The notes under the pieces are model-generated. The model worked only from the letters and a program-made list of their open reading frames with translations. It was not told where the DNA came from and did no database searches. The position numbers and the translations under genes are program-made. A DNA stretch of 34,765 nucleotides from Bryobacterales bacterium (GTDB lineage: Bacteria; Acidobacteriota; Terriglobia; Bryobacterales; Bryobacteraceae), in contig PMTT01000744.1 in NCBI GenBank assembly GCA_003167275.1, positions 5,664 through 40,428 of the forward strand, written 5' to 3'. Below are positions 20,458 through 26,502 of this stretch, piece after piece (position 1 is the stretch's first letter; each line of letters begins with the position of its first letter).

Positions 20458-21129
20458 ATGGCCGCACCGGTTTTTCCTCCGCTTTTGAGAGACGGCGACC
20501 GCCTCACGCGCGATGAGTTCATGCGCCGCTGGGAAGAGATGCCGTTCTTGAAGTGCGCGGATTTGATCGATGGAATCGTATACATACTTCCGGTCTCAGA
20601 TCTTCACGGCCGTCTTCGTGTTCTCTTGGGCTACTGGGCGAGTGGCTACATCGCGGCGACTCCAGGTTGTAAGGCTGGGATCATAGGCACCTGGCTAATG
20701 TCTGAGGACAGCGCACCACAACCGGATCTGTCGTTGGAGATCGACCCCAAGCGTGGCGGGCAATCCCGGATCGAGGGCGAATACCGGGCGGGGGCGCCGG
20801 AACTGGCCGTCGAAATCAGCCAAACCGGAAGCACAATTGACATGGGCGCGAAGCTTCGGCTCTATGAGCGATCGCGCGTCCTGGAATACGTGACGCTTCA
20901 GCCCCGGCAGCATCAGATAATCTGGTACTAACTCATCGACGGCAAGTACCGCGAGATCGCTCCGGACGAAGACGGCCTACTGCGCTCGCGGATCTTCCCA
21001 GGGTTGTGGCTGAATCCGGCGGCACTGTGGGCTGATGATTTCGCCGGTTTGGCGGCGACGGTTCAACAGGGAATTGCGACGTCCGAACATGCGGAATTCG
21101 TCGAGCGGTTGGCCCGCGCGAAGCGCTGA
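20458..21129 (+). pseudogene. Uma2-family endonuclease-like gene, interrupted by a nonsense codon
   Basis: This frame encodes the same protein as the neighbouring intact gene at 21189-21863 but carries TAA at 20929-20931 where the neighbour has GAA. The reading frame after the stop remains fully alignable to a TGA at 21127-21129. It also lacks one codon near residue 44. As it stands it would yield 157 residues, keeping most of the PD-(D/E)xK-like core (QPDL, ELAVEIS, AKLRLYE) but losing the C-terminal strand and helix. Upstream sequences of both copies are also similar (GAAGGATTA-GCTATGGCCGC), so the duplication included the leader. A truncated product could still fold. Confidence 0.9.
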
Positions 21130-21188: not shown

Positions 21189-21863
21189 ATGGCCGCTCCA
21201 GTTTTTCCTCCCCTCTTGCGAGACGGCGAGCGCCTGACGCGCGATGAATTCATGCGCCGCTGGGAGCAGATGCCGGACTTGCATTTCGCGGAGTTGATCG
21301 ACGGAATCGTATACATGCCCTCTCCAGTCTCGAACGTTCATGGCGATTTCCAACTTCGTATGGGGTACTGGCTGGTTTGCTATACCGCGGCGACTCCAGG
21401 TTGTAAGGCCGCGATGTCAGGAACCTGGCTGATGTCCGAGGACAGCGCGCCTCAACCGGATCTGGCGTTGCGAATCGAGCAGGCGTTTGGCGGACCATCC
21501 CGGATCGAGGGCGAATACCCGGCAGGGGCACCGGAACTGGTCGTCGAAATCAGCCATACCACTAGCGCAAAAGACATGGGAGCGAAGCTTCGGCTCTACG
21601 AGCGATCGGGTGTCTTGGAATACGTGACGCTTCGGCCCCGGCGACAGCAGGTAGTCTGGCGTGAACTCATCGACGGCAGGTACGTCGAGATCGCTCCGGA
21701 CGAAGACGGCCTATTGCGCTCACGAATCTTTCCGGGGCTGTGGCTGAATCCAGTGGCCTTGTGGGCTGATGATGTTCAGGCTTTGGCGGCGACGGTTCAG
21801 CAGGGAGTTGCGACGTCCGAACATGCGGAATTCGTCGAGCGGTTGGCCCGCGCGAGGCGCTAG
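21189..21863 (+). CDS. Uma2-family (DUF820) restriction-endonuclease-like protein
   Basis: A 224-residue protein of the Uma2 family, which is widespread and multicopy in cyanobacteria, acidobacteria and planctomycetes and has a PD-(D/E)xK nuclease fold of unknown role. Family marks are LTRDEFMRRWEQMPDLHFAELIDGIVYMPSPVSNVHG, SEDSAPQPDLALRI (acidic residue), APELVVEISHTTSAKDMGAKLRLYERSGVLEYV (ExS and Lys) and RSRIFPGLWLNPVAL near the end. It is the intact copy of a tandem pair with the broken gene 59 bases upstream. AGGATTAAGCT precedes the ATG. DNA cleavage by these proteins has not been generally shown. Confidence 0.9.
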   Translation: MAAPVFPPLLRDGERLTRDEFMRRWEQMPDLHFAELIDGIVYMPSPVSNVHGDFQLRMGYWLVCYTAATPGCKAAMSGTWLMSEDSAPQPDLALRIEQAFGGPSRIEGEYPAGAPELVVEISHTTSAKDMGAKLRLYERSGVLEYVTLRPRRQQVVWRELIDGRYVEIAPDEDGLLRSRIFPGLWLNPVALWADDVQALAATVQQGVATSEHAEFVERLARARR

Positions 21864-23531: not shown

Positions 23532-24536
23532 CTACATGTCGCAGAGGGCTGCTACCAGGGCTCCCTTGGCGGTCGCAGTGAGGGGATCTCCGGCCATCCG
23601 AATCTCGGACAGCTCCACAGGGAACTTACTGTCTCCCAGAATCTTCTCGAACCGCTCGCGGAAGCCCTTGGGCATGGCCGTGCCGCCGCTCAGCACCAGT
23701 GGGATGGGCCTCCCCAGCTTAGGCATGTTGCGGGAGGTCAGGAACGCGTTTCGCAGACCGGTCACCAAGGTCTGGATCATGTCGTCGTAATACACACTCA
23801 CCACCTGCCGGAACTGGTCTTCATGGTGGCCGTTCATCTGGAACGACTGTTCTTTCAGGATGCGCACGCGGTTGGCGCGCTCCCCCATCACCGAAGCCGC
23901 GCTGGCGTCGATGAAATCCCCCGCCTTGGGAATGCTAAAGCTCAGGATCGGAACCGACAGGTACGCGAAGCACACGTTGCAAAGGCCCCCGCCGCAACTG
24001 ATCCCGATACCGGTGTAGTTGGTGCTCTCCATCTCGCCATAGACCACCGCCAGGCCCTCATTGATGCTCTTGACATCGTACCCGAGGTCAGTTAAGATCT
24101 CGCGTAAAGTGGCGTCGTGGTAGGTGAGGTTCTCCTCCGCCCCGAGCGGTGCCGCCGGCACGGTGTAGCAAAGCTTCTGGCCCTTCTCCCCTTTGCCTGC
24201 AAGGGAAGTGGCGATGTCGCGGATCAATCTGACGCTGTCGGGCTCGTTGGAATTCAGGATTCCGCGCGCCATGGTCCGACGGATGTCTTTCTGCAGGAGA
24301 TCCGCGAATCGCTCCGATTCGTTTCCATGCACGACGATCTCATTGCCTTCCACGGTGTGCGAGACACCCTCCTTACGGAGGACGTTCTCGGTCATCTTCG
24401 AGTAAGGGATGGTGACGAAAGCGTTCAACTGACTGTCATATTTGAAGCCCTGGTCCGCCTGCCGCGCGGCCACGATGCGGCTGGTGCCCACATCCAGGCC
24501 AAGTGCTGCCGGGCCTTTTGCTGTCTCGGTTTTCAT
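23532..24536 (-). CDS. MreB/ParM-like bacterial actin homologue
   Basis: A 334-residue protein with all five actin-fold motifs in order: phosphate-1 LGLDVGTSR (12-20), connect-1 INEGLAVVYG (158-167), phosphate-2 GIGISCGGGLCNV (176-188), adenosine LVLSGGTAMPKGF (280-292) and connect-2 DPLTATAKGALVA (317-329). Length fits MreB (about 340), but phosphate-1 differs from the canonical GIDLGTANT, and Cys181/Cys186 in phosphate-2 are unusual. It could polymerise on ATP binding; an Hsp70-like nucleotide switch is the alternative. No signal peptide is seen. Its ATG lies one base after the stop of the membrane-anchored amidase gene, with GAGGAG inside that gene's end, so the two should be translated together. 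Confidence 0.87.
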   Translation of the reverse strand: MKTETAKGPAALGLDVGTSRIVAARQADQGFKYDSQLNAFVTIPYSKMTENVLRKEGVSHTVEGNEIVVHGNESERFADLLQKDIRRTMARGILNSNEPDSVRLIRDIATSLAGKGEKGQKLCYTVPAAPLGAEENLTYHDATLREILTDLGYDVKSINEGLAVVYGEMESTNYTGIGISCGGGLCNVCFAYLSVPILSFSIPKAGDFIDASAASVMGERANRVRILKEQSFQMNGHHEDQFRQVVSVYYDDMIQTLVTGLRNAFLTSRNMPKLGRPIPLVLSGGTAMPKGFRERFEKILGDSKFPVELSEIRMAGDPLTATAKGALVAALCDM

Positions 24537-24537
24537 C

Positions 24538-25821
24538 TCAGTTCTCCTCGTCCGCGCCCCTGTTCCGGAGCGCAGTCATTTCATCTCGATATCTCTTATG
24601 CAAAATCGTTCGGTATTGCGCCACGGACATGAGATTCGCCGCGGCGCGGTCGCGCAACCATTCTTCGGCCAGGGCGAGGCCCTTCCGGATTCCGGGACCA
24701 ATCGCATGGAGATACACGGAATCGTATTCGAACCCCAGCAGGTAGAGGCTGGGCGGCGGCTGTTCGTAGTTGTCGGGGAGGCCGACCTCCCGGAACGGGA
24801 AGCCCTTTCCCCAATCGCTATGCCAACCGATGCGCATGTTGTCCGGATTCACCGAGACCTGCGCATGCGTCACGCAGTTCTCCGCCGGGATATTGTACTT
24901 ACTCCGGAGCATCTCCGTGAGGACTTTGGCGGCGTGCACCTGCGCCTCATTAATCGGCGGCTGGTCGGTTTGCATGCTGGCTTCGAAGGCCACACTCAGG
25001 AAGCTCTGGTTGAGTCCCAGATACAGCCACCGCGAATCGGCCCAAACCGAATTGCCGGCGTGGTTGGCGGCATCGGATTCCACCACGATCCGATGGACCC
25101 CACCAAAACGGTCGATCACGAAGTGGTAAGCGCGCTTGTTCCGGACGTAGAGTAGCGTCTCGAGGCCGATCCGATGCAGGTTATGCTGCTGGGTGGCCTC
25201 AAACGGCGCCTGGTCGCTTTCGGTGGTGTGGAACAAGATTCCCGCCGGTTGTGTACGGAGTAGTACGGACGATGATTTTGGATCGTCATCGGGACGGCTT
25301 GACTGGTTGGCAGCCGGTGGAACGCCCCCGGTGTCCATGGGCTTCTCGCTGCCGGGATGAGGCTGAATTTCCCGCGCCAACGACGAGCCTAAAGCCAGCC
25401 GCGCCAGCCGGGGATGCTGGTCGGCGCCCTGTTCCAGGCTCACCATCTGGTACGACCGCGGCTCATTGGAAACCGCAAACCGGTTCTCGATGCGAAGGCC
25501 ATTGCTATAGACTTCGTAGTCCTTGGTCGCTTCGACCCTCCAGACATTGGGGGTCTCCTGTTTCACCGCCCGAATGGCGTCAGCCGTCGGGCGGCTACCC
25601 GGCAGGCGGCGAAGGTGGGCATCGGACCGCATGGAGAGCAGCAACACCACCATAGAGACAGCGGTGAGAGGACCCCAGTGGGGCCAGGCTGGTGGCGGCG
25701 CGGTGGTGGCGGCGCGCAGGTATTTCAGGCGCTGGATCGGGTCGCTGATCTTCTGCGCGTTCCGCTCGATCCGGGCAGCGTGGCGGAAAACCTGCGGTTT
25801 TTCCGGAGCGACAGGGGACAT
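24538..25821 (-). CDS. Membrane-anchored N-acetylmuramoyl-L-alanine amidase (Amidase_2/PGRP type)
   Basis: A 427-residue protein in three parts. Residues 1-47 are a charged, probably helical cytoplasmic tail; about 49-64 (WGPLTAVSMVVLLLSM) form one short membrane segment; the rest faces outward. A linker domain (about 95-190) includes DYEVYSNGLRIENRFAVSNEPRSY and a low-complexity stretch. The catalytic Amidase_2 domain (about 193-345) shows FHTTES with His198 as zinc ligand, AYHFVIDRFGGVHRIV, NHAGNSVW, LGLNQSFLSVAFE, and HAQVSVN with His319; Asp336 (WHSDWGKGFPF) is the likely third ligand. This type cuts the bond between muramic acid and the stem peptide. It is the first gene of a pair with the actin-like protein. 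Confidence 0.87.
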   Translation of the reverse strand: MSPVAPEKPQVFRHAARIERNAQKISDPIQRLKYLRAATTAPPPAWPHWGPLTAVSMVVLLLSMRSDAHLRRLPGSRPTADAIRAVKQETPNVWRVEATKDYEVYSNGLRIENRFAVSNEPRSYQMVSLEQGADQHPRLARLALGSSLAREIQPHPGSEKPMDTGGVPPAANQSSRPDDDPKSSSVLLRTQPAGILFHTTESDQAPFEATQQHNLHRIGLETLLYVRNKRAYHFVIDRFGGVHRIVVESDAANHAGNSVWADSRWLYLGLNQSFLSVAFEASMQTDQPPINEAQVHAAKVLTEMLRSKYNIPAENCVTHAQVSVNPDNMRIGWHSDWGKGFPFREVGLPDNYEQPPPSLYLLGFEYDSVYLHAIGPGIRKGLALAEEWLRDRAAANLMSVAQYRTILHKRYRDEMTALRNRGADEEN

Positions 25822-25947: not shown

Positions 25948-26404
25948 CTAGGGGGATGCGGAAAAAGATCTGGGCCGCAGGGCGAGCCCTCCAAAGTCGA
26001 TTCCTTGAGGGCCATAAGAGCGGCGGGAATTGCGAGGGCCCGTCCCACCATCTTCTTTGGCGATCTTGACCGAGGCGACTTCGAAAGCGGGCCGGTTGGC
26101 GGGATCGGATTGCGCCCAGCCCAGCTTCGCATTGACCACGCCGGTCGCGACGGGACCAGCCAATGCCGTGATTGCGGCGAGCACCAGTAACAGCTTTCGG
26201 CTAAAACCCAATTGGAGAGCGGTGCGATGTCTCATGATTCCCTCGATTCGCTTCTTGAGATTGGAGCCTGTTACCCCGGCGGCACAAACGGGCGCTGACT
26301 TGCAGACAGAATCGGCACACTGCGAGAATTCCACGCGCGTAGACCTCCGGTTCGCCGATGGCGCGCAGAACTTCCTCATCGCAGGCCGTTTCGCGCTCGT
26401 CCAT
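25948..26404 (-). pseudogene. Remnant of an M56/BlaR1-TIGR03435 fusion gene
   Basis: The piece read from 26404 encodes DERETACDEEVLRAIGEPEVYARGILAVCRFCLQ, the region after the metalloprotease site of M56 (BlaR1-type) sensor peptidases. A shift near 26296 is needed to continue with APVCAAGVTGSNLKKRIEGIM, a membrane segment (KLLLVLAAITALAGPVATGVV) and FEVASVKIAKEDGGTGPRNS, the start of the soil-associated TIGR03435 domain. The frame ends soon after GIDFGGLAL. So the 5' part with the HExxH site, the frame and most of the TIGR03435 domain are all missing. This combination is typical of Solibacter-type genomes. No blaI-like repressor is nearby. No product is expected. Confidence 0.8.
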
Positions 26405-26502
26405 CCAGCATAGTTGGTCTGTAAGGGTCTTTGGGCGATTTTGGGCGGGAGATTCTGACTGGGCACCAGCGATTTGCGATTTGTCTCAGCTTCTCGATGC
26501 GA

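Follow-up and report, generated by a model that had tools for sequence, protein, structure and literature searches.

What might an actin-family protein do when its gene lies directly behind that of a membrane-anchored cell-wall amidase? This question is raised by a stretch of 34,765 nucleotides from a Bryobacterales bacterium (Acidobacteriota), which we call the window. Both genes were found on the minus strand where the original prediction had placed them, with a single base (24537) between the amidase stop codon and the actin ATG. The features of the locus, all on the minus strand, are as follows.

23532–24536: volactin-family actin (P0001), 334 aa; from Pfam PF25216 and homologues
24538–25821, stop codon included: bitopic N-acetylmuramoyl-L-alanine amidase (P0002), 427 aa; from Pfam PF01510 and residues
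24544–24548: ribosome-binding site AGGAG of the actin gene, within the last codons of the amidase gene; from reading the sequence
24541–24786: conserved C-terminal extension of the amidase, residues 346–427; 2.06 bits per column
24856–25254: Amidase_2 catalytic domain, residues 190–322; from Pfam and alignment
25624–25677: single hydrophobic (membrane) segment, about residues 49–66; hydropathy peak 1.30
25678–25821: predicted cytoplasmic N-terminal tail of the amidase, residues 1–48, N-terminal to the hydrophobic segment
25714–25749: tail motif ISDPIQRLKYLR, residues 25–36, proposed volactin-binding tether; from column conservation and a phage-derived model

Organization of the locus

The position of the actin's AGGAG within the amidase coding sequence makes translational coupling between the two genes probable. 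Promoter and terminator scans around the pair gave no clear signal. The neighbouring genes in the window encode a CarboxypepD_reg protein and a DMP19-like protein, and the chromosomal genes lepA and glnE are present in the same window. Upstream of the amidase, an open frame (25948–26466) carries a C-terminal FEVASVK... segment and resembles a shortened version of some larger protein of acidobacteria. Elsewhere in the window, two tandem Uma2-family genes (20458–20931 and 21189–21863) have near-identical N-termini.

The actin belongs to the volactin family

P0001 matched the Pfam family Volactin (PF25216) over residues 11–330 with E = 7.9e-77 (259 bits, cut-off 35), and the Pfam search returned no MreB_Mbl (PF06723) match for it, even at E ≤ 1. 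A separate, true MreB is encoded in the same genome (E = 5e-147). Homologues on haloarchaeal plasmids share 36% identity with P0001 over 95% of its length (E = 2e-66), and volactin of Haloferax volcanii (VolA, HVO_2015) belongs to the same Pfam family. According to PMC10869688, volactin was named in that archaeon, where it forms dynamic filaments, aids the change from rod to disk and contacts the membrane by filament tips only.

The label "MreB/ParM-like" in the original prediction was therefore wrong at the family level. Its reading of all five actin motifs held up: phosphate-1 (LGLDVGTS), connect-1 (NEGLAVVYGE), phosphate-2 (GIGISCGGG), adenosine (VLSGGT) and connect-2 (AKGALVAAL) can each be read in P0001, and the motif columns are mostly invariant when 12 diverse relatives are aligned. 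The protein also falls outside canonical MreB and Hsp70, as it matches Volactin rather than MreB, FtsA, ParM or Hsp70. We rejected an assignment as MreB, given the missing MreB_Mbl match and the fact that mreC and mreD do not adjoin the gene. An assignment as ParM was rejected as well, with no parR or parC partition neighbour around the pair and Volactin as the result of the family search. In a tree with MreB, FtsA, DnaK and R100 ParM the volactins stayed together; the outgroups sat on saturated branches of 7–10 changes per site, which makes their placement uninformative, and the FtsA row is a wrong or partial frame.

At the level of the fold, an AlphaFold model of the orthologous actin at locus L136 had MreB, MamK and BeeR as PDB fold matches, and the FtsA–FtsN (7q6i) and MreB–RodZ (2wus) complexes were also among them. 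Searching the PDB by sequence gave no close relative for the actin or for the amidase.

Domains and topology of the amidase

P0002 matched Amidase_2 (PF01510) with E = 2.6e-14 (54 bits, cut-off 26). The zinc ligands H198, H319 and D336 are invariant in its relatives, the third of them lying just past the end of the Pfam match. H334 is likewise invariant and occupies a position at which Lys/Thr is usual and AmpD-type enzymes carry Lys; E280 is nearly invariant (92%). The zinc-ligand residues are intact, and the protein is a presumed active amidase. The conserved C-terminal extension has no Pfam family; for the L136 orthologue, AlphaFold models it as helical.

The layout first proposed for this protein, a cytoplasmic tail followed by one membrane segment and an outward catalytic domain, is upheld by the relatives: in 82 of 88, a strong hydrophobic segment (hydropathy >1.3) follows the tail, and in nearly all the tail-side flank of this segment has a net positive charge. 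In the window copy this segment is short and only weakly hydrophobic (mean hydropathy 1.30) and may instead be a cleaved signal peptide.

Conservation of the pair in Acidobacteriota

We scanned 84,980 genomes and fetched the best 80 actin relatives with their loci. These are apparently all Acidobacteriota, mostly Bryobacterales; two of them (L119 and L142) bear other organism names and are probably mislabelled. The amidase gene lies directly upstream of the actin gene, on the same strand, in 78 of these 80, frequently with a 4-bp overlap, and at the remaining two loci no amidase was found in the fetched stretch. In a phylum-wide sample of 396 Acidobacteriota genomes, the amidase adjoins volactin at 16 of 22 volactin loci, so that the pair is conserved far beyond the single genome in which it was first noticed. 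Volactin scored above the cut-off in 21 of the sampled genomes and the paired type of amidase occurred in 18, with 17 genomes carrying both, four volactin only and one the amidase only (Fisher p = 4e-25, with the relatedness of the genomes ignored). In two of the 17, the amidase is encoded elsewhere in the genome and retains the tail motif. Volactins that lack the amidase occur in a few Acidobacteriota (G062, G146 and G266/G290).

The genome of the window contains a second pair, on contig C812, whose genes are divergent; the pairing therefore survives a changed arrangement. Across 87 loci the distances among the actins and among the amidases correlate with r = 0.83 (highest of 2000 permutations, 0.15), which indicates co-inheritance and not contact, since vertical descent alone predicts such a correlation. 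These results support a dedicated, conserved actin–hydrolase pair in many soil acidobacteria. We found no published description of a volactin–amidase pair in the openly accessible literature.

A conserved motif in the amidase tail

The tail of the amidase is variable in length and sequence except for one stretch of 12 residues with the consensus I-x-D-P-V-x-[RK]-L-[RK]-[YF]-[LI]-R. This motif reaches 3.12 bits per column, compared with 2.83 for the catalytic domain and 1.0–1.5 for the flanking tail, and its residues P28 and L32 are 99% conserved. When a motif model built from phage proteins (described below) was run on the window amidase, the tail motif took rank 1 of 416 windows.

The same motif beside volactin in phages and haloarchaea

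A scan of viral contigs returned 325 actin relatives, and tblastn located volactin-type actin in two records from uncultured phages, 485 and 595 kb long. Eighty viral loci were kept (L154–L233; for example L196:2674–4002). At 69 of the 80, the gene immediately upstream of volactin codes for a single-pass membrane protein (about 100 residues) that ends in a motif such as ENISSSVNKLKNMKG. PHROGs held no family for the phage volactins or for the small bitopic proteins upstream of them. On haloarchaeal plasmids, the two loci that were read encode a membrane protein, DUF7139, directly upstream of volactin, with VDDAVDGLRQLQ, VDQQVAGLKGLK and VDDQTAKLKELR in the tails.

L152:4917–5825: DUF7139, one to two motif copies in the tail
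L153:4977–5900: DUF7139, one to two motif copies in the tail

From its position and its motif, DUF7139 is a candidate volactin anchor in archaea. The register is common to the families, with an aliphatic residue at −7, V or I at −3 (T in one DUF7139 copy), K or R (or G) at −1, L at 0, L or M at +3 and a basic residue or Q at +4. In the phage and DUF7139 proteins the motif is far from the membrane segment.

To keep the comparison from being circular, one motif model was built from the phage proteins only and another from the amidases only; two plasmid-derived rows were left out of the phage alignment. Of 61 non-redundant amidases, each with about 390 windows, the phage model gave the tail motif the top rank in 43 and a place within the top three in 54, and the amidase model picked the C-terminal motif in 64 of the 69 phage proteins. 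Both models also ranked the same DUF7139 segment first in the two haloarchaeal proteins. The motif scores are modest (shuffled amidases have a mean best score of 4.4), individual scores are not extreme against shuffled sequences, and the argument therefore rests on the positional agreement between unrelated families. At nine further phage loci the upstream protein is non-homologous; in seven of these a mixed model found its best match close to the C-terminus, the match being strong for L162 and weak for several others. As a separate observation, the gene that follows an amidase-less volactin at L041:2594–3229 encodes a C-terminus, DISEAVQRLKEV, that resembles the motif in its phage version.

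Structure models of natural fusions

To model partner and actin together, we applied AlphaFold to natural gene pairs that lie in one frame, taken as single chains with the stop read as glycine. In the amidase–volactin fusion of a Bryobacterales relative (L136), residues 11–37 of the tail form two helices (pLDDT 80–89) between disordered stretches; the pTM of 0.57 leaves the relative placement of tail and actin unset. The anchor–volactin fusion of a phage (L231) reached a pTM of 0.81, with the motif helix (89–103) and a strand (80–84) near pLDDT 90 and disordered linkers on both sides. By our own estimate the actin domain, placed alone, would give a pTM of about 0.7. Because the value obtained is higher, and because the strand has no partner of equal length in the tail, the phage motif segment most likely docks on volactin. 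The L136 model by itself does not demonstrate docking; the tail is the likely volactin contact of the amidase, with physical binding supported by indirect computation only.

Variants and neighbours that hint at function

Six volactins (L048, L055, L056, L057, L058 and L060) carry an HU/IHF-type or HU-like N-terminal extension, with the HU domain confirmed by Pfam in all four that were scanned. The extension ends at an internal GGAGG-ATG start, and one gene may therefore give two products, a DNA-bound and a free volactin. At six loci (L044, L047, L049, L056, L058 and L060) the gene directly upstream of the amidase encodes a SPOR-type membrane protein. These six are homologous and belong to relatives outside Bryobacterales; Pfam confirmed the SPOR domain in both of those scanned. 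SPOR domains bind denuded glycan, which amidases strip of its peptides. One amidase-less volactin (L046) adjoins a class A penicillin-binding protein, and at L054:5751–7442 another volactin without an amidase is fused to a response-regulator receiver domain and is followed by a gene for a ParA/MinD-type ATPase. The HU, SPOR, penicillin-binding protein and receiver variants point to wall remodelling, possibly at division.

A proposed volactin–amidase module and its alternatives

We consider it probable that the two genes form a cytoskeleton–wall module, in which a cytoplasmic filament is coupled to wall cutting through the tail motif. Volactin would polymerise, and its filament would associate with the amidase as a bitopic protein of the inner membrane. 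The tail motif, phi-x-D-P-V-x-[RK]-L-[RK]-x-[LM]-[RK], would fold as an N-capped amphipathic helix and bind volactin, and the periplasmic domain would cut the amide bond that joins the stem peptide to N-acetylmuramic acid. The filament would thereby place or cluster the amidase, which would in return tether the filament to the membrane. Because Haloferax filaments touch the membrane by their tips only (PMC10869688), a tether of such kind is called for. On a wider scale, we lean slightly towards regarding volactins as one actin system of acidobacteria, haloarchaea and large phages, with a common 12-residue helical membrane-tether motif that unrelated proteins (the amidase, DUF7139 and the small bitopic phage proteins) have taken up, and which in bacteria yields an actin-steered wall-cutting enzyme.

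The direction of control might also be the reverse, from enzyme to filament: the amidase would then be chiefly a membrane anchor for the tips of volactin filaments, its periplasmic domain gripping the wall or opening it locally to let the anchor sit there. Tethering is indeed the common denominator of all the partners, since those of phages and haloarchaea have the motif without an amidase, and membrane binding by tips in Haloferax volactin (PMC10869688) is in keeping with it. A pure anchor would have no need of invariant zinc-ligand residues, however, and the SPOR-domain genes upstream at six loci indicate real wall cutting, so that we regard this reading as somewhat unlikely. Another conceivable role is in DNA-linked segregation or septum clearing: volactin would connect wall and nucleoid, and the amidase would act where chromosomes need clearing. 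The HU/IHF-type or HU-like extension with its strong internal start in six relatives, the SPOR-domain gene at six loci and the view that salactin, another haloarchaeal actin, helps DNA partitioning (PMC10746226) all favour such a role. But the HU form is limited to some lineages, and the volactin of the window has neither an HU domain nor an adjoining SPOR gene; we think this role unlikely here.

If the two genes were merely co-regulated, perhaps at division or during stationary phase, the proteins would not touch and the motif would bind another partner or lipid. A basic amphipathic helix near the membrane could well bind phospholipid, but in the phage and DUF7139 proteins the motif is distant from the membrane segment, and its P and D positions suit a capped helix better than a generic lipid-binding one. 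Moreover, a motif of the same spacing appears in phage and archaeal proteins whose sole evident common feature is the neighbouring volactin gene, which leaves mere co-regulation quite improbable. As for a canonical MreB- or Hsp70-type protein with the amidase as a chance neighbour, it is favoured by the actin fold only, with MreB and MamK as the best PDB fold matches. The Volactin match (E = 8e-77) in place of MreB_Mbl, the genome's own MreB (E = 5e-147) and the adjacency in 78 of the best 80 relatives refute this explanation, to which we assign practically no chance.

Comparison with known systems

In FtsA–FtsN, MreB–RodZ and PilM–PilN, too, a bitopic membrane protein binds a partner of the actin fold through its cytoplasmic part, and in this respect they resemble the proposed volactin–amidase module; unlike the amidase, these membrane proteins are not hydrolases. 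In Bacillus subtilis, the actin-family protein MreBH works with the wall hydrolase LytE, so that an actin relative and a wall hydrolase act together there too. LytE is secreted and has no cytoplasmic tail, and the mreBH and lytE genes do not form a fused operon, whereas the volactin–amidase pair has both a tailed hydrolase and an operon. The original prediction contrasted the pair with known MreB systems, which it described as pairing with synthesis proteins (MreC, RodA); as a rule for cytoskeletal systems this is too strong, as MreBH–LytE and BacA–LmdC (PMC10945521) exist.

BacA–LmdC, known from Hyphomonas and Rhodospirillum, is similar in its overlapping cytoskeleton–hydrolase operon and in its bitopic hydrolase with a short cytoplasmic tail, which the bactofilin BacA binds with a KD near 15 micromolar (PMC10945521). 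It differs in its components: a bactofilin and an M23 endopeptidase there, a volactin and an Amidase_2 amidase here. Haloferax volactin, in turn, belongs to an archaeon without peptidoglycan; the gene upstream of volactin at the two haloarchaeal loci is that of DUF7139 and not of an amidase, and the accessible part of PMC10869688 reports no volactin partner in Haloferax. If the proposed binding holds, the volactin–amidase pair would work broadly like BacA–LmdC and MreBH–LytE while belonging to neither. Cytoskeleton–hydrolase pairs as such were already known; what is new is the pairing of volactin with an amidase and an apparently cross-domain tether motif.

Implications

The module would provide a case, open to direct testing, in which an actin filament steers wall hydrolysis instead of synthesis, in a phylum, Acidobacteriota, whose cell biology is almost unknown. 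Candidate membrane tethers also emerge from the analysis, DUF7139 for the volactin of archaea and others for the phage volactins, and it singles out a short peptide for which binding can readily be assayed. The recurrence of the tail motif beside volactin suggests a common way to tether volactin filaments and, if the motif binds, one tethering rule would link bacterial, archaeal and phage cytoskeletons.
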